Shown: piece after piece, positions 1,359 to 10,471 of the stretch
Layout: each line of letters opens with the position of its first letter
Position numbering within the stretch: the stretch's first letter is position 1
DNA from: Lachnospiraceae bacterium UBA6452
Lineage (GTDB): Bacteria; Bacillota; Clostridia; Lachnospirales; Lachnospiraceae
Direction: 5' to 3'
NCBI GenBank assembly: GCA_002441865.1
Contig: DJNY01000202.1
Coordinates: forward strand, 1 to 10,506
DNA length: 10,506 nt
Program-made: the position numbers and the translations under genes
The notes under the pieces: model-generated
Databases searched by the model: none
What the model saw: only the letters and a program-made list of their open reading frames with translations
What the model was told of the DNA's origin: nothing

Positions 1359-2735
1359 TCATCCTGCCAGATGCAGCATATCAATGAGTATGAGCATCAC
1401 CAGACCGTAATATACGACGATCGCAACCAGATCGTTGATCGTTGTGATCAACGGACCGGAAGCGACTGCCGGATCGACTCCTATCTTTTTAAACAGCATC
1501 GGAACGATCGTACCGACAAGGCTGGATACGACCATTGCACCGATCAGGGATACCCCGACACAACCGGAGATCAGGAAAGAAAAGGCAATGCTGTAGTGTT
1601 TAAATAGGAAGATATACAATCCTAAAAAGACCAGTGCCAGAATACCGAGGAATGCTCCGTTGAAAAATCCGATCTTGCATTCCTTTCCTATTAAAAGGAA
1701 CTTCTGTTTTGTTGTCAGATTTTCGTCCATGAGCACACGGATCGTTACGGCAAGTGACTGTGTTCCGACATTTCCCGCCATATCCAGGATCAGGGACTGG
1801 AAACACATGGCGATCGGTAAGACCGCAACAACCGTTTCAAACGCACCAACCACAGTTGATACCGCCATTCCGAGAAACAGCAGGATGATCAGCCAGGGCA
1901 GTCTTTTTTTCATGCTCTCCTTTGTCGTCTCATGCAGATCCTCTTCTGCCGTCAAACCGGCGAGCTTTGCGTAATCATCACCCATTTCATCATCAACCAC
2001 TTCAATGACGTCCTGCGCCGTGATAATACCTGCAATACTATGATCCTCCAAAAGAACAGGAATGGAATCCTCCGCATAATCCTTGATCTTTTCAATACAG
2101 TCACTGATCTTTTCATGATCCATGACATACGGATAAGATTTACTGATCAGATCGTCTAGCTCCGTATATTCTCTGGCGATGATCAGATCCTGCAGTTCAA
2201 TGGCTCCGTAAAATCTGCCGTCTCTGTCTGTTACATAAATCGTGGAAATATTATCGTTTTCTCCCGCCTGCTTGACAAGCTCGCGCATCGCCTGTCTGAC
2301 CGTCAGATCCTTATGGATCACGATGAAATTTGTCGTCATCAGACTACCGATTTCATCGTCCTCATAAGACAAAAGCAGCTTGACATCCTCTCCCGCTTCT
2401 TCATCCAGCATGGCGAGGATCTTGCTCTTTTCTTCTTCGTCCAGCTCCTCGAGCATATCAACCGCATCGTCGGAATCCATTTCTGAAACAAGTCTTGCCA
2501 CGCTTTCCAGTGACAATTCCTTTAAATACGGCTCTGCATCGTCCACATAGGCAAATATCTCCGCCATGCGTTCCATGCCCAGTGCCGCATACAGTTTTTT
2601 GCGTTCCTGCTCGGTCAGAGACTCCAGACTTTCTGCAATATCGTTATCATGATAATCGGATAACCGGTCAGCCAGTTCTTCCCTGGAAAGGTTGCTGCGT
2701 ATGATCCGGATCAGTTCTTCTACATACTTCGTCAT
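1359..2735 (-). CDS. mgtE: Magnesium transporter MgtE
   Basis: Inner-membrane Mg2+-gated Mg2+ channel/transporter, which acts as a homodimer. The 458-residue protein has the complete MgtE order: an acidic, helical N domain (about 10-125), a CBS pair (about 130-250, with GSLMTTNFIVI opening the first and IPVLLEDHSIAGIITAQDVI in the second), a connecting helix (about 255-280), and five membrane helices from about 281 to 455. Signature segments are DMAGNVGTQS (318-327) and GVDPAVASGPLITTINDL (419-436). Asp435 matches the conserved pore aspartate of the family. The many acidic residues at the N/CBS interface fit the known Mg2+-sensing role. I chose the ATG at 2733-2735 because AAGGAGG lies 8-9 nt upstream. 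An in-frame extension to 2804 would run through a terminator hairpin and is rejected. The upstream leader suggests regulation by attenuation. Confidence 0.96.
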   Translation of the reverse strand: MTKYVEELIRIIRSNLSREELADRLSDYHDNDIAESLESLTEQERKKLYAALGMERMAEIFAYVDDAEPYLKELSLESVARLVSEMDSDDAVDMLEELDEEEKSKILAMLDEEAGEDVKLLLSYEDDEIGSLMTTNFIVIHKDLTVRQAMRELVKQAGENDNISTIYVTDRDGRFYGAIELQDLIIAREYTELDDLISKSYPYVMDHEKISDCIEKIKDYAEDSIPVLLEDHSIAGIITAQDVIEVVDDEMGDDYAKLAGLTAEEDLHETTKESMKKRLPWLIILLFLGMAVSTVVGAFETVVAVLPIAMCFQSLILDMAGNVGTQSLAVTIRVLMDENLTTKQKFLLIGKECKIGFFNGAFLGILALVFLGLYIFLFKHYSIAFSFLISGCVGVSLIGAMVVSSLVGTIVPMLFKKIGVDPAVASGPLITTINDLVAIVVYYGLVMLILIDMLHLAG

Positions 2736-2740
2736 CGTAT

Positions 2741-2750
2741 CTTCCTCCTT
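2741..2750 (-). promoter_or_regulatory. Ribosome binding site that fixes the mgtE start
   Basis: Minus-strand AAGGAGGAAG lies directly 5' of the ATG at 2735, with optimal spacing. It begins right after the U-tract of the upstream terminator, so it would only be transcribed when RNA polymerase reads through. Confidence 0.85.
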
Positions 2751-2790
2751 ATAAAAAAATAATGCACCATAGAACAATTCATACGGTGCA
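2751..2790 (-). terminator. Intrinsic terminator in the mgtE leader (attenuator)
   Basis: Reading the minus strand, arm TGCACCGTA (2782-2790), a 10-nt loop (2772-2781) and arm TATGGTGCA (2763-2771) form a 9-bp stem with one G-U pair. It is followed by UUAUUUUUUAU (2751-2762). This is a textbook Rho-independent terminator, but it sits upstream of mgtE and only about 15 nt from its start, in the same orientation. Termination here would prevent mgtE expression. The first arm can also pair with 2924-2933 inside the small ORF, giving an alternative antiterminator. Confidence 0.75.
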
Positions 2791-2824
2791 GGGAAAAGAT
2801 ACAATAGTATGCCCTATTTCAATT

Positions 2825-2968
2825 TCAGCATAACAAATAACAGGAAATTTCTCCGAATTTCCCATCATTCAAAAACAGCCGCAGATCAGACATATGCAGC
2901 CATCTGTATTTCTTTTCAGAACTTACACCGTATTTCGTACTTCGACTATTACCGTCAGGGCTGTCCAT
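2825..2968 (-). CDS. Putative 47-residue leader peptide / small protein upstream of mgtE
   Basis: I do not recognise this product. The reading frame begins MDSPDGNSRSTKYGV and ends EISCYLLC, with a TGA at 2825-2827. The case for translation is its start: a near-perfect AGGAGGTGA Shine-Dalgarno 5 nt before the ATG (2966-2968), and a well-spaced promoter ending about 25 nt further upstream. The peptide is basic and polar in its first half, with no signal peptide or membrane helix. It is separated from mgtE by 89 nt that hold an intrinsic terminator, so it lies where leader peptides of attenuators lie. Codons 12-15 contain the sequence complementary to the terminator arm, so a ribosome there would affect folding. 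It may be a leader peptide, a small functional protein, or a chance frame. An in-frame upstream ATG (3014-3016) lies at or before the predicted transcription start and is less likely. Confidence 0.5.
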   Translation of the reverse strand: MDSPDGNSRSTKYGVSSEKKYRWLHMSDLRLFLNDGKFGEISCYLLC

Positions 2969-3001
2969 GCCTGTCACCTCCTGTTTTTTAAATACGCAAG
3001 C

Positions 3002-3030
3002 AGTATAACACTGCATTTTTTCATTTGCAA
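3002..3030 (-). promoter_or_regulatory. Promoter of the mgtE leader
   Basis: On the minus strand, TTGCAA (3025-3030) is followed after exactly 17 nt by TATACT (3002-3007), which is preceded by TGT to give an extended -10. Predicted transcription start is near 2995, about 25 nt before the small-ORF ATG. Confidence 0.7.
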
Positions 3031-3087
3031 CCTGCTTTACAGAATATTTACAATCCGTTTGCAGGTTTTCTCAGGCTTCCATTCGTA

Positions 3088-3116
3088 TTGTTAGTTATGT
3101 CAAATTCTCCTATAAT
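3088..3116 (+). promoter_or_regulatory. Upstream candidate promoter of pckA (P1)
   Basis: TTGTTA (3088-3093), 17 nt, then a perfect TATAAT (3111-3116). It would give a leader of about 130 nt. It is divergent from the mgtE leader promoter, with roughly 60 bp between their -35 boxes. Confidence 0.6.
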
Positions 3117-6658: not shown

Positions 6659-7462
6659 TTATTTCAAATATAGATGATTTTCTTGCTCTTCTAATATACC
6701 CATTTGGTGTATTGCAATTTCATTTAATTTTATCAATCTTTCCTTTTGTGGTAATCCATCTTCAATTAAAATAGCATTCAAACTTTCTAAATTTGAAAGA
6801 CATATCAGTTCATTCACAGTTGCATAATCTCTAATGTTTCCCTTTTTGTCCATATTCTGTACTCTCCACTCTTTCGCCGTCATACCAAATAACGCCACGT
6901 TTAAGACATCAGCTTCCGATGCATATACGATAGCAGTTTGTTGTTTGGTAACCTGTTTGGGAACCAGATTATCCTTTATTGCATCAGTATGTATCCTATA
7001 ATTGATTTTTGCCAGCTCTCTCTTTGCATTCCATCCGATTTTACTCTGCTCTTCCTTCTTTAACCGTTCAAATTCCTTAATCAAGTATAGTTTAAATTTA
7101 GGTGAAACCCAGCTTGCAAACTCAAAAGCGATATCTTTGTATGCGTATGTACCACCATATCTTCCCGCTTTTGCAATAATACCTTTTGCATTTGTCCGCT
7201 CTACCCACTGTCTGACTGACATAGCAAAACGGTTTAATCCAGCTTCCTGCATAATATTGCAGTATTCATCAAAATCAAATTCTTCATTATATAACTCTTC
7301 CCATATTCCCAAAAATTCAATTGTATTTTTATTTCTTAACCATTTTTCTATTAACACGATTCCATTATCGATATTTCTTACCATGTCTGTAAGCGATATA
7401 TAATCCTCCTCTTCAATCCTAATAATCTGTATTTCAACATCATTTACTTTTACTTTGCTCAT
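6659..7462 (-). CDS. KilA-N domain-containing protein, SOS-box controlled
   Basis: Putative DNA-binding protein of the KilA-N family, common in large DNA viruses, phages and scattered bacterial loci; its exact role is unknown. The KilA-N domain covers about residues 18-138. It shows YISLTDMVRN (21-30), EKWLRNKNTIEFLGIWE (39-55), EAGLNRFAMSVRQWVERTNAKG (73-94), the hallmark GRYGGTYAYKDIAFEFASWVSP (100-121) and KLYLIKEFERLKKEE (124-138). Residues 140-267 form a charged helical C-terminal region I do not recognise, with MTAKEWR (194-200) the clearest block. The start follows AAAGGAG 7 nt upstream. The gene is AT-rich, unlike pckA/pfp. It faces pfp convergently and is divergent from the metallophosphoesterase gene. 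A perfect LexA box over its transcription start predicts DNA-damage induction. No integrase or phage structural gene is nearby, so it may be a phage remnant or part of a standalone module. Confidence 0.92.
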   Translation of the reverse strand: MSKVKVNDVEIQIIRIEEEDYISLTDMVRNIDNGIVLIEKWLRNKNTIEFLGIWEELYNEEFDFDEYCNIMQEAGLNRFAMSVRQWVERTNAKGIIAKAGRYGGTYAYKDIAFEFASWVSPKFKLYLIKEFERLKKEEQSKIGWNAKRELAKINYRIHTDAIKDNLVPKQVTKQQTAIVYASEADVLNVALFGMTAKEWRVQNMDKKGNIRDYATVNELICLSNLESLNAILIEDGLPQKERLIKLNEIAIHQMGILEEQENHLYLK

Positions 7463-7633: not shown

Positions 7634-10471
7634 ATGATTGGTGATACATCTGGATGTTTAGAAGTAATAGCTGAATGTGATGACATTCAAAATGATATAG
7701 AAGAGATTCTTAGAAATTATGCTCAAACCGAATGGAATACATATTTAAATAATTTTGGATCCTGTGGGAGTAGTATAATTAAACATTATTATGATTTATC
7801 CCAACAGGAATCTGACATTTTTGAGCAAGGAGGAACTATGCCAGACTCCTTTGTTGCAAAGTTTGCAAATAATCGCAGAGCCCTTTATAAATATATCCGT
7901 CAAAGTAACACACTTCTTTGGCACAAGAAAAATCCAGATACATTTTATTCTTTAATGTATGCTTTCATGGATAGAAATCTTTTAAAAATCAAATGTAATA
8001 TATGTGGCAGAGAATTTTTTATTGATCCTGATAGTTTCCACCGCGTCAAATGGAAATCTTGTATACGTTCGGAATGTTTAAAATTTTCCGTTAATTCTGA
8101 TTCCATTAATTATTCCAACAACTTATATAAATGGAATACAAATGAAAATGCTTTACAAGAAATTAATCCACAATTAAGCAAGGCAAGCGAATTATCTACT
8201 CCCTTTGCTTATTATAGTGAATCCCGAAATACTGCACCCTCTTTAAACTTTGCATATATTTCGGACATTCATTTAGATCATCATTTAGAATATTATAACA
8301 ATAATGAAGACATTATGATCAGGAACATTGCATACAAATTATTTAGTGGCATCCAAAAGCGAAATATAAACTTTGTTATTTTTGTCGGCGACACCGCTTC
8401 TTCTGCAAGATTAACTACAAAGTTTTACAGGTATTTTATGCATTTGCAAGATATAATATATTTTAAAGAATTTCGATCAGATTTAATTTGCATGCGATCC
8501 AAAAAAATTTATTTGAATTCTTATTACCAAAATCGTAATTCAGATACTAAAGATGAACACAAAATATATTTTCAAAAAAAATTAGACAATTTAACTAACT
8601 ACATAAATAAACTGATTAAAAGATTTGCAAAAGATTTTGATTATATAAATTTTAAAAATTATAGATTACAATATTATCCTAATGATACTCTAAAAAATGC
8701 TTTTGAGCATTATACGCTTACCCCTACTTATAAAGAACTTAAACTCTCATCAGAAAAAGAAGCTGTTTTCTCGGAAATCATACATTTGGAAAATATTGTT
8801 ACCCGGTATAAAAACAAGCTACTTAATCTTGATAATGACTCTTACATTGCAGATCTTGAAAAAGAGATAAGTAGATTTGAGAATAAGTATTCCAAACCTT
8901 TAGAAGAGATATCAATAAATGATTATAAGCATCACTACTTAGACAATATTTATGTCGTCTTAGGCAATCATGAATTTATTGATTTTCCAGATATAAAATC
9001 CGGTGTCTCATATTATGAAAATGCGCTTTCTTCAATAGGCATACATCTTTTACACAATAATTATATTCTTGGTGAAAATTATGTCATATACGGAGGTACA
9101 GGTTTTGCAAAATATGATTCAAAGTGGAATGCTACCTCATTAATTTGCTGTCCCAATTTTACGCGGGATGATGAAAATAAGGAAACTACTCTATTTGAAG
9201 AAAACTACTATCAAGCATTAGAACTTGCAAAGACCAATGGTCTTTGTTTTATTTGTGTGTCTCACTACCCTACACATTCTTGTCTTAATAAAAACGATAA
9301 AGAGACTATTTATTTTACAGGACATACTCACCACAATATATTATCGAAAAATTCCAATCAAATTTTATATGCAGATAATCAAATTGGATACAAAAGCAAT
9401 AATATAACATTCAAGTTTGCAACTACAGGATTAGAAACAAACCCTTATGCAGATTTAGAGGATGGTTTGTTTCTAACATCTATTGATGATTATCTCCATT
9501 TTTATAGATATATCGGTGAAAACATAGGAGATGGCAATCTATTATATCAGCGTTATTTAAATGGCAAAACCAATCTATATGTTGTTAAACGATTTAATTA
9601 TTATGGCTTTTTTATGGTACGCTACAATGGATCCAGCAAAGGTGTATCTATTTTAAATGGAGGTAAAACAAAAAAAATTTCTGAATCTACAGATATAAAT
9701 TGGATTTGCGAGAATTTTGAGATTGTTCTGTTAAAATATTTACGTCTATTATTACCCCTACGCAACAGACAAGAACTCTTATCCCAAGAGTTAAAAGAAC
9801 TTGGGTTAAGTGGTAATATCCATGGTTGTATTGTAGATATAGACTATTATCATCATATAATGGTAGATCCTTTGAATGGATCAATAGCATTCTATTATTC
9901 ATCTTGCTTTGGATATGTGCGTGACCTGAAATCCTTTGACGAAGTAATAGAGTCATTAGAAGATAATCAGAATGACTTTTATCAATACAATATTTCTCAA
10001 CTTCGGGAAAATTATAAAAAGAAATCACAACAAACAGAATATTTATTATCACTGCATTCTAACCAAAAGTTAATCGGTACGGGTAAGCCGACTTTTCTTT
10101 CAAAAGATCAGCAGGAATATCTTGTCAGTAGATCTGATGGTGCTTATGGAGTTTCCGCCAAAATTAATCCCCTTCAAAGATTATTTAGCGGACATGTATT
10201 GCGCGCTTTCGATATACGATTAACAGAAACAAAAGGAACACCCTATCGTACATATTTATATACTAATCAATGTTTTCTCTATAACGGTGTAGCATATAAA
10301 ATTACAGATGACGATGGAACAGATATTATAAAAGCTAAGGAGATCAAAAATTGGAATCTGTCCCGCAGAAAAAATTTTAAACCTTCTCTCACTCGTAAAG
10401 TCAAAAGTTTTTCATTATTAGAATTGAAAAAAGCATTTAGTGCTGATTCTAATTCACATTGGATAAAATAA
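7634..10471 (+). CDS. Large metallophosphoesterase with Cys4 zinc site and long C-terminal extension
   Basis: Putative metal-dependent phosphoesterase of unknown substrate, 945 residues, no signal peptide or membrane segment. All calcineurin-like motifs are visible: DIH (Asp211, His213), VGD (Asp253), GNHE (444-447), SH (His544) and GHTH (563-566). Motif II reads GDTAS, lacking the Asp/Asn often found three residues after GD. The 190 residues between motifs II and III, normally a few dozen, hold a charged helical insert (about 260-435, probably coiled coil near 375-420). The N-terminal 200 residues carry CNIC (121-124) and Cys143/Cys148, a likely zinc ribbon. Residues 645-945 form an unrecognised region containing GNIHGCIVDIDYYHHIMVDP (727-746). 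The start follows GGGGG 8 nt upstream. AT content is extreme. It is divergent from the SOS-controlled KilA-N gene. Nuclease, nucleotide phosphodiesterase or protein phosphatase activity all remain possible. Confidence 0.88.
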   Translation: MIGDTSGCLEVIAECDDIQNDIEEILRNYAQTEWNTYLNNFGSCGSSIIKHYYDLSQQESDIFEQGGTMPDSFVAKFANNRRALYKYIRQSNTLLWHKKNPDTFYSLMYAFMDRNLLKIKCNICGREFFIDPDSFHRVKWKSCIRSECLKFSVNSDSINYSNNLYKWNTNENALQEINPQLSKASELSTPFAYYSESRNTAPSLNFAYISDIHLDHHLEYYNNNEDIMIRNIAYKLFSGIQKRNINFVIFVGDTASSARLTTKFYRYFMHLQDIIYFKEFRSDLICMRSKKIYLNSYYQNRNSDTKDEHKIYFQKKLDNLTNYINKLIKRFAKDFDYINFKNYRLQYYPNDTLKNAFEHYTLTPTYKELKLSSEKEAVFSEIIHLENIVTRYKNKLLNLDNDSYIADLEKEISRFENKYSKPLEEISINDYKHHYLDNIYVVLGNHEFIDFPDIKSGVSYYENALSSIGIHLLHNNYILGENYVIYGGTGFAKYDSKWNATSLICCPNFTRDDENKETTLFEENYYQALELAKTNGLCFICVSHYPTHSCLNKNDKETIYFTGHTHHNILSKNSNQILYADNQIGYKSNNITFKFATTGLETNPYADLEDGLFLTSIDDYLHFYRYIGENIGDGNLLYQRYLNGKTNLYVVKRFNYYGFFMVRYNGSSKGVSILNGGKTKKISESTDINWICENFEIVLLKYLRLLLPLRNRQELLSQELKELGLSGNIHGCIVDIDYYHHIMVDPLNGSIAFYYSSCFGYVRDLKSFDEVIESLEDNQNDFYQYNISQLRENYKKKSQQTEYLLSLHSNQKLIGTGKPTFLSKDQQEYLVSRSDGAYGVSAKINPLQRLFSGHVLRAFDIRLTETKGTPYRTYLYTNQCFLYNGVAYKITDDDGTDIIKAKEIKNWNLSRRKNFKPSLTRKVKSFSLLELKKAFSADSNSHWIK

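Follow-up and report, generated by a model that had tools for sequence, protein, structure and literature searches.

The mgtE leader of the window

The window, meaning the whole 10,506-nt stretch of DNA analysed here, comes from Lachnospiraceae bacterium UBA6452 (contig DJNY01000202.1) and carries an mgtE gene whose leader occupies the minus strand from 2995 to 2735. The MgtE product was recognized by TIGR00400 mgtE with 279 bits, compared to a cut-off of 232.75, and by the Pfam families MgtE, MgtE_N and CBS. An initial annotation of the sequence had proposed that a promoter, a small ORF, a terminator and the mgtE ribosome binding site (RBS) follow one another in this leader. All four elements were located in this order on the minus strand, and are listed here together with other features of the window.

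3030-3002, minus strand: promoter-like site TTGCAA-17-TATACT, 9/12 consensus match with TG before the -10, directly preceding the leader Shine-Dalgarno (SD) sequence
near 2995, minus strand: expected transcription start, predicted from the position of the promoter-like site
2982-2974, minus strand: SD sequence of the leader ORF, AGGAGGTGA, read from the sequence
2968-2825, minus strand: leader ORF of 47 codons behind this SD, beginning MDSPDGNSRSTKYGVSSEK, with conservation limited to the first ~10 codons
2965-2954, minus strand: codons 2-5, Asp-Ser-Pro-Asp, acidic at 2 and 5 (codon table of leaders)
2944-2942, minus strand: codon 9, CGA (Arg) (codon table of leaders)
2933-2924, minus strand: segment A, the antiterminator strand in codons 12-15, which pairs with B and lies at the class-wide complementarity peak
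2870-2835, minus strand: hairpin inside the ORF, between A and B, with 15 pairs (-13.3 kcal/mol, z -4.2)
2804-2794 with 2745-2735, minus strand: possible helix over the mgtE RBS and start codon, enclosing the terminator hairpin (fold of 2812-2735, z -5.0)
2790-2781, minus strand: segment B, the terminator 5' arm, partner of both A and C (pairing and folding)
2771-2763, minus strand: segment C, the terminator 3' arm (folding of 2790-2763)
2759-2753, minus strand: T run of the intrinsic terminator, read from the sequence
2750-2744, minus strand: SD sequence of mgtE, AAGGAGG, read from the sequence
1359-2735, minus strand: mgtE, Mg2+ transporter of 458 aa, ATG at 2735 (TIGR00400, Pfam)
6659-7462, minus strand: KilA-N domain protein (domain match)
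7634-10471, plus strand: 945-aa protein with a calcineurin-like phosphoesterase domain (domain match)

The terminator hairpin (2790-2763) has a folding energy of -13.2 kcal/mol (z -4.9), equalled by none of 200 shuffles. Both marks of an intrinsic terminator, a stable hairpin and a T run directly after it, were found at 2790-2753; the output of a simple terminator scan did not contain it. Promoter matches of 9/12 are frequent by chance, with 5 in the scanned region on both strands compared to 2.3 in shuffles, and in a scan before 40 leaders 25 reached at least 9/12, but 25% of shuffles on average did so too.

The annotation had further claimed that RNA segment 2933-2924 can pair over 10 positions with the 5' arm of the terminator at 2790-2781, and that this antiterminator segment lies in codons 12-15 of the small ORF. 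We found exactly 10 stacked pairs, of which nine are Watson-Crick pairs and one is G.U, and confirmed the location of the segment within these codons. The complementarity of A to B had a z of -5.0 relative to shuffled downstream sequence (probe from nt 35 of the ORF), and probes starting at nt 11-26 gave z of -0.9 to 1.7. By its fold, the hairpin at 2870-2835 would draw segments A and B together. Complementarity for the RBS-covering helix can also be read in the relative L003, which at 94% identity is too close for a test of conservation.

No Rfam family reached its gathering score in the window, in agreement with the claim that the leader is not an M-box. Seven Rfam matches up to E 10 fell within 2650-3100, the M-box not among them, and the best had an E-value of 0.86; the M-box covariance model RF00380 likewise found no sequence in the window at its threshold of 44 bits. 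The related claim that the leader belongs to no known class stood as far as Rfam is concerned, where it has no match, but not for its logic, which resembles the enterobacterial mgtL/mgtQ leader ORFs.

Two side observations concern other parts of the window. The first concerns the window and L002: leader codons 21-29 (2908-2882) encode YRWLHMSDL, which we take to resemble the start of calcineurin-like phosphoesterases, and a 432-aa frame of one family genome contains a match to leader codons 11-44 (E 0.0095); this resemblance is probably due to chance. The KilA-N and 945-aa genes adjoin genes for PEP carboxykinase and phosphofructokinase, and their stretch is perhaps a mobile insertion.

Distribution and conserved N-terminus of the leader ORF

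We gathered 80 mgtE loci by MgtE protein similarity alone. Of the 80, 58 have a leader that begins alike, with an SD sequence and then ATGGACAGTTGTGACAGTnnnGGGCGAAGT or variants, accepted by reading; L047, L059 and L080 score low against the motif, and L008 and L033 have little upstream sequence. In total 100 leaders were gathered, of which 81 were nonredundant, with five repeats (L085, L088, L128, L131 and L137) dropped and 19 leaders removed by shared 8-mers. The search for leaders used resemblance to the motif together with a required SD-like match, which means that the frequencies of motif and SD are in part a product of the search, and the presence of an SD sequence is not evidence because the locating scripts demanded it. 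Titles of the leader-bearing records name Lachnospiraceae, Ruminococcus, other Clostridia and an Erysipelotrichia bacterium (L080). In two Faecalibacterium loci (L025, L026) divergent short ORFs, MSGDH and MSSDH, were observed upstream of mgtE before a terminator-like CGCGGTGTATTTTT; judging from their sequences these are perhaps a variant of the same leader.

Among 299 family genomes the sequence-only model R1 matched at least 46 (E<=0.01), and at E<=0.001 at least 10 of 391 class genomes and at least 1 of 398 phylum genomes; these numbers are lower bounds, as no more than 12 to 17 candidates were scored per genome. At E<=1e-4 there were 30 family matches, of which 29 lie ahead of a co-directional mgtE and the remaining one ahead of mgtA, and the genes behind them are Mg2+ transporter genes only. 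Of 17 weaker family matches (E 1e-4 to 1e-2), 9 precede mgtE and 8 lie elsewhere and appear chance-like. All eight class-genome matches that were new relative to the family precede mgtE. The open-access literature searched yielded no published description of an mgtE leader ORF in Clostridia.

The leader ORF typically starts M-D-S-C/P-D-S/G-x-x-R. Among the 81 leaders the start codon is ATG in 72, GTG in 8 and TTG in 1, ORF length ranges from 15 to 54 codons, and mean pairwise identity is 0.50 over codons 2-10 and 0.06 over codons 16-25. We called 69 of the 81 standard, defined by CGN, CAA or CAG at codon 9, a definition that excludes AGA and AGG; among the other 12, Arg occurs at codon 9 only in the shortened L059 (AGG, with its own CGA at codon 6). 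In the standard leaders, codon 2 is Asp in 61 and Glu in 5, codon 4 is Cys in 51 (TGT 37, TGC 14) and otherwise Ser, Gly, Pro or Thr, codon 5 is Asp in 68 (GAT 35, GAC 33), and codon 7 is free. Across all 81 leaders, which were found by likeness to the motif, codon 2 is acidic in 77 and codon 2 together with 4 or 5 in 74, and no more than 5 have a Pro within codons 2-8. GAT and GAC are used evenly at codon 5, and this is not a built-in result of the motif-based collection. The codon pattern indicates that the leader ORF is translated, and codon usage and conservation argue that its N-terminus is selected as a peptide, at least at codons 2, 4 and 5.

The remainder of the ORF is not a conserved protein, given the low identity over codons 16-25 and the variable length. 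A rival explanation is that the ORF product is a small protein acting on MgtE, like MgtR or MgtS, with an ordinary terminator behind it. The 47 codons of the window's ORF, its good SD sequence and its relatives in protein databases agree with such a product, but only codons 2-10 are kept and identity drops to 0.06 beyond them in ORFs of 15 to 54 codons, and we regard this explanation as very improbable.

Synonymous codon choice is restricted at several conserved positions. Codon 9 of the 69 standard leaders is CGA in 60, CAG in 5 and CAA in 4, with no other CGN; in the mgtE genes of leader-bearing loci, CGA makes up 6% of the 731 Arg codons and is the rarest Arg codon. Compared to mgtE of the same loci, Gly at codon 8 is GGG in 27/47 vs 8%, and Ser3 is AGY in 46/46 vs 31%, though the leaders are related, so naive probabilities overstate these biases. 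The restricted choice at Ser3, GGG and CGA, and the retention of the string GGCGAAGT in L019 even out of frame, would suit an RNA aptamer for Mg2+ or another ligand, that is, a riboswitch overlapping an ORF. Other features count against it: GAT equals GAC at codon 5, the start codon varies as start codons do, and codon 7 is free. There is no Rfam match, and conserved secondary structure was not found in 45 aligned leaders. An aptamer confined to the conserved first part of the leader was considered and rejected, the alignment showing no conserved fold. We judge an aptamer to be improbable.

Alternative pairings and ribosome position

To the reading of the leader as a translated ORF, the pairing of segments A, B and C adds a second conserved property. 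Leader probes of 14 nt were scanned against the downstream leader with 60 dinucleotide shuffles in the 81 nonredundant leaders. Complementarity was near background over the N-terminal motif (mean z -0.32 to 0.00 for probes starting at nt 8 to 26) and highest at codons 12-17, with peak mean z of -1.96 at nt 35-48 (t -8.8) and -1.80 at nt 38-51 (t -10.2); probes past nt 44 stayed slightly negative (mean z -0.46 to -0.64). Each half of the set shows the main peak by itself, both the window with the 39 leaders selected by MgtE protein and the 41 leaders found by R1; the latter half could lean towards the core CGRTGG since R1 spans codons 12-16 too. In a swap test, a leader's own downstream region fell within the best 5% in 30/81, and control segments did so in 10, 3, 6 and 13 of 81. 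At ORF nt 37 all four Watson-Crick pair types occur (T-A 9, A-T 10, G-C 10, C-G 4).

Conservation and covariation in relatives had been put forward as the check on the annotation, and here the pairings are kept as a class with base-pair changes among the 81 leaders. A:B lies below z -2 in 51 of them, and 30 are without such strong pairing, including the related Clostridiales/Ruminococcaceae MAG leaders L031, L036, L045, L056 and L060. From a single genome alone the pairing could have been a chance resemblance around an ordinary terminator; a position-specific signal in 81 leaders and in two separately gathered halves leaves that explanation scarcely credible.

Other pairings were also scored. 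A comparison of A with terminator 3' arms by longest common substring was discarded, with at least 6 shared letters in 46% of own and 32% of swapped pairs, a test too blunt because the core CGRTGG recurs. A conserved "1:2" stem between A and the 5' leader, as in trpL or mgtQ, gave no signal (z 0.12). A smaller complementarity peak was observed in the 81 leaders between the leader SD/start region (nt -13 to +6; ~2981-2963 in the window) and the downstream leader, with a mean z of about -1.0 and 20% below -2, and is perhaps feedback on leader-ORF initiation.

Among the 51 loci below z -2, the further partner of B is a terminator 3' arm in 26 and the RBS region in 11, and 14 were left unassigned. 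For all 81 leaders these numbers are 30 and 24, compared to 15 and 17 for a control segment (nt 7-30). Taken together, B pairs with terminator or RBS in 54/81 vs 32/81 for the control (p 0.0009), or in 37/51 vs 32/81 (p 0.0003). This sorting is based on folding and is rough, as in L066, which was called terminator though its C is the RBS; it replaced a first automatic sorting that performed poorly. That control segments also give terminator- or RBS-type calls in 32/81 counts against our main reading. On these assignments, the switch seems to act on transcription in some leaders and on translation in others.

Computation shows directly the leader ORF, the conservation of its N-terminus, and the alternative pairings A:B and B:C, which change together. 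These results support the central claim of the annotation, an attenuator built around a small ORF: the leader class is real and widespread, and its alternative pairings are kept. That it constitutes an RNA switch with a translated leader is, in our judgement, very likely.

We next considered where on the leader a ribosome would have to stand. Equilibrium folding of the window's leader gave a probability of the terminator, P(terminator), of 0.94 for free RNA and 0.97 with A covered. With nt 8-35 covered it was 0.77, and with everything up to nt 35 covered it was 0.46, with A:B at 0.52; covering either of two control stretches gave 0.95-0.96. The free RNA of the window is thus predicted to keep A away from B. 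Across loci, covering the 5' part rather than A lowered the OFF structure in 22/26 terminator-type and 9/11 RBS-type leaders, and mean P(B:C) in the 26 terminator-type loci was 0.59 free, 0.29 paused, 0.75 with A covered and 0.35 with the control covered. The cross-locus test is weak because covering A abolishes A:B by construction and a downstream control block also lowers OFF. In these models, holding a ribosome in the first ~9 codons would allow the ON state, and its onward movement would favour OFF.

We infer that ribosome position is the switch, and likewise its polarity and its Mg2+ signal. Ribosomes would initiate on the leader ORF, and reading past codon 9 would cover A (codons 12-15), leaving B to pair with C so that the terminator forms and the transporter is OFF; in other species the OFF state would hide the RBS instead of forming a terminator. 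A stall or drop-off within the first ~9 codons would leave A free to form A:B, turning the gene ON. The likely trigger would be low Mg2+ acting on ribosomes whose nascent chain is acidic at positions 2 and 5. We consider it reasonably likely that a leader-ORF attenuator of this design, with ribosome position as the switch and low Mg2+ as the trigger, is common to Mg2+ transporter genes of many Clostridia. Ribosome destabilization by the acidic N-terminus is on balance a plausible sensor. A single Asp-x-x-Asp is weaker than the known destabilizing motifs; with an E. coli YFP reporter, DPEE was the minimum motif for a clear effect in the available text of PMC11282234.

A ribosome might also be held before A by something other than Mg2+, as in a general translation-rate or amino-acid attenuator responding to rare codons (CGA Arg, GGG Gly, Cys) or to an inhibited ribosome. 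Such an attenuator would draw on the excess of CGA at codon 9 (60/69) and GGG at codon 8 (27/47) over their 6% and 8% in mgtE, and on Cys4 in 51/69, and an uncharged tRNA or a drug would likewise hold ribosomes before A. However, the 69 leaders contain no run of codons for one amino acid, as trpL/ilvB-type leaders do, Cys4 and Arg9 (to Gln) are replaceable while the acidic residues 2 and 5 hardly vary, and the 30 matches at E<=1e-4 precede Mg2+ transporter genes only. We consider this alternative unlikely.

Returning to the Mg2+-responsive attenuator, ribosome destabilization alone does not account for the conserved CGA. Among 43 loci with z below -2.5 the best probe starts at a median of nt 37, which lies 12 nt past the first base of CGA. 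In the shortened leaders L099, L126 and L059, where CGA is at codon 7, 7 and 6, the pairing segment tracks CGA and not the start codon; L122, L136 and L047 fit this uncleanly, and L080 is ambiguous. With CGA in the A site, the footprint of a ribosome would end roughly 12 nt past the CGA start. Since A begins at about this point, the switch would lie in how CGA is decoded at low Mg2+. Such a reading, a new ribosome-based Mg2+ sensor of Clostridia in which an acidic N-terminus is followed by CGA read through inosine wobble as the measuring point, is tentative and rather unlikely: the unclean fits of L122, L136 and L047 and the ambiguous L080 count against it, as do the out-of-frame string in L019 and the Gln codon in 9/69. 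As stated in the available part of PMC3711424, tRNA-Arg(ICG) decodes CGU, CGC and CGA.

The magnesium link and known leader systems

The single match before a gene other than mgtE (L110, within L147) precedes a gene recognized by TIGR01524, magnesium-translocating P-type ATPase, with 1147 bits. On the minus strand of L147, an M-box (4823-4661) and the leader (4577-4515) stand in tandem before this mgtA. A homologous leader before mgtA behind an M-box points to Mg2+, and we consider Mg2+ to be probably the signal of the switch.

An M-box stands before mgtA in 10 of 28 mgtA loci scanned. It is carried by 13 of 120 family genomes, and a distant MgtE (28-30% identity) follows in 2 of 5 M-box loci fetched. 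All 32 leader-bearing genomes tested lacked an M-box, with Bacillus subtilis and Lactococcus lactis positive as controls; these 32 are drawn from 39 leader-bearing family genomes, with G027, G223, G235, G255, G265, G336 and G338 outside the test. G235, outside the 32, has M-box and leader in tandem before mgtA.

Several observations concern short ORFs before mgtA. In 30 loci there were 13 ORFs of 15-60 codons with an SD match of at least six, 10 of them with Asp/Glu at codon 2, the SD and length threshold having been chosen after seeing the list; R1 backs only L147 strongly. A pairing scan of 14 mgtA leader ORFs, picked by hand and not an independent test, gave no clean peak. Weaker short ORFs with a similar start follow the M-box in L143, L144, L145, L152, L154 and L165. 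Weak R1 matches near mgtA were seen in L161 (4582-4534, minus strand, E 4e-4) and L169 (4025-3979, minus strand, E 9e-3), the latter flanked on both sides by an mgtA-like gene, a placement like that of mgtQ between mgtC and mgtB.

To our knowledge, most documented cases in which translation of a leader ORF controls a Mg2+ transporter come from Enterobacteriaceae. If our reading is true, a leader ORF that has these acidic positions in unrelated surroundings, and is distributed across gut Clostridia, would mean that measurement of Mg2+ via ribosome stability arose more than once or is far older than thought. The leader could explain control of Mg2+ uptake in bacteria without an M-box before mgtE, and the 81 natural leader variants are a ready comparison set.

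Other leader elements share part of this arrangement. Like the present leader, the M-box (RF00380) controls Mg2+ transporter genes and in the family precedes mgtA and distant mgtE, but it is an aptamer where the present leader is an ORF, and it is missing from the window. The mgtE motif SRC-65-1 is also a leader element before mgtE; it is a riboswitch candidate of Thioalkalivibrio only, a large imperfect stem holding SD and start codon, and the available text of PMC11109978 describes no ORF in it. M-box and short ORF follow one another in one leader in M. tuberculosis (uORF2), as in L147; in M. tuberculosis, according to the accessible part of PMC12810186, the M-box governs uORF translation together with Rho, at the genes pe20 and rv1535.

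The nearest likeness is to the enterobacterial leader ORFs, as far as the parts of the two sources used here describe them. In the mgtQ leader of Salmonella, the residues Asp2 and Glu5 reduce ORF translation and, through alternative stems, increase MgtB; destabilization of the ribosome is proposed by the authors and stated as not demonstrated there (PMC8092293). The present leaders share with mgtQ the placement of a short ORF ahead of a Mg2+ transporter gene, acidic residues at precisely codons 2 and 5, and alternative stems that free or hide the downstream RBS, and impaired translation of the ORF raises the transporter in mgtQ, which is here the expected polarity. Unlike them, mgtQ is 8 codons long, sits between two genes and works at the level of translation only, and its ORF overlaps stem region 1 (PMC8092293), whereas the present ORFs have 15-54 codons, often an intrinsic terminator and a conserved CGA, and themselves hold the antiterminator strand. 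In mgtL, low Mg2+ leads to ribosome drop-off at EPDP, upon which mgtA is transcribed, and Glu2 and Asp4 are required (PMC11282234). The acidic residues of the leader ORF are shared with mgtL, Glu2 and Asp4 of EPDP being the counterparts there, but mgtL employs a Rho-dependent terminator and prolines in the motif (PMC11282234), in contrast to the intrinsic terminator or hidden RBS and the rare Pro of the present leaders. By computation, three marks of an mgtL/mgtQ-type leader were found in the present class: an ORF directly before a Mg2+ transporter gene, early acidic residues and alternative folds.
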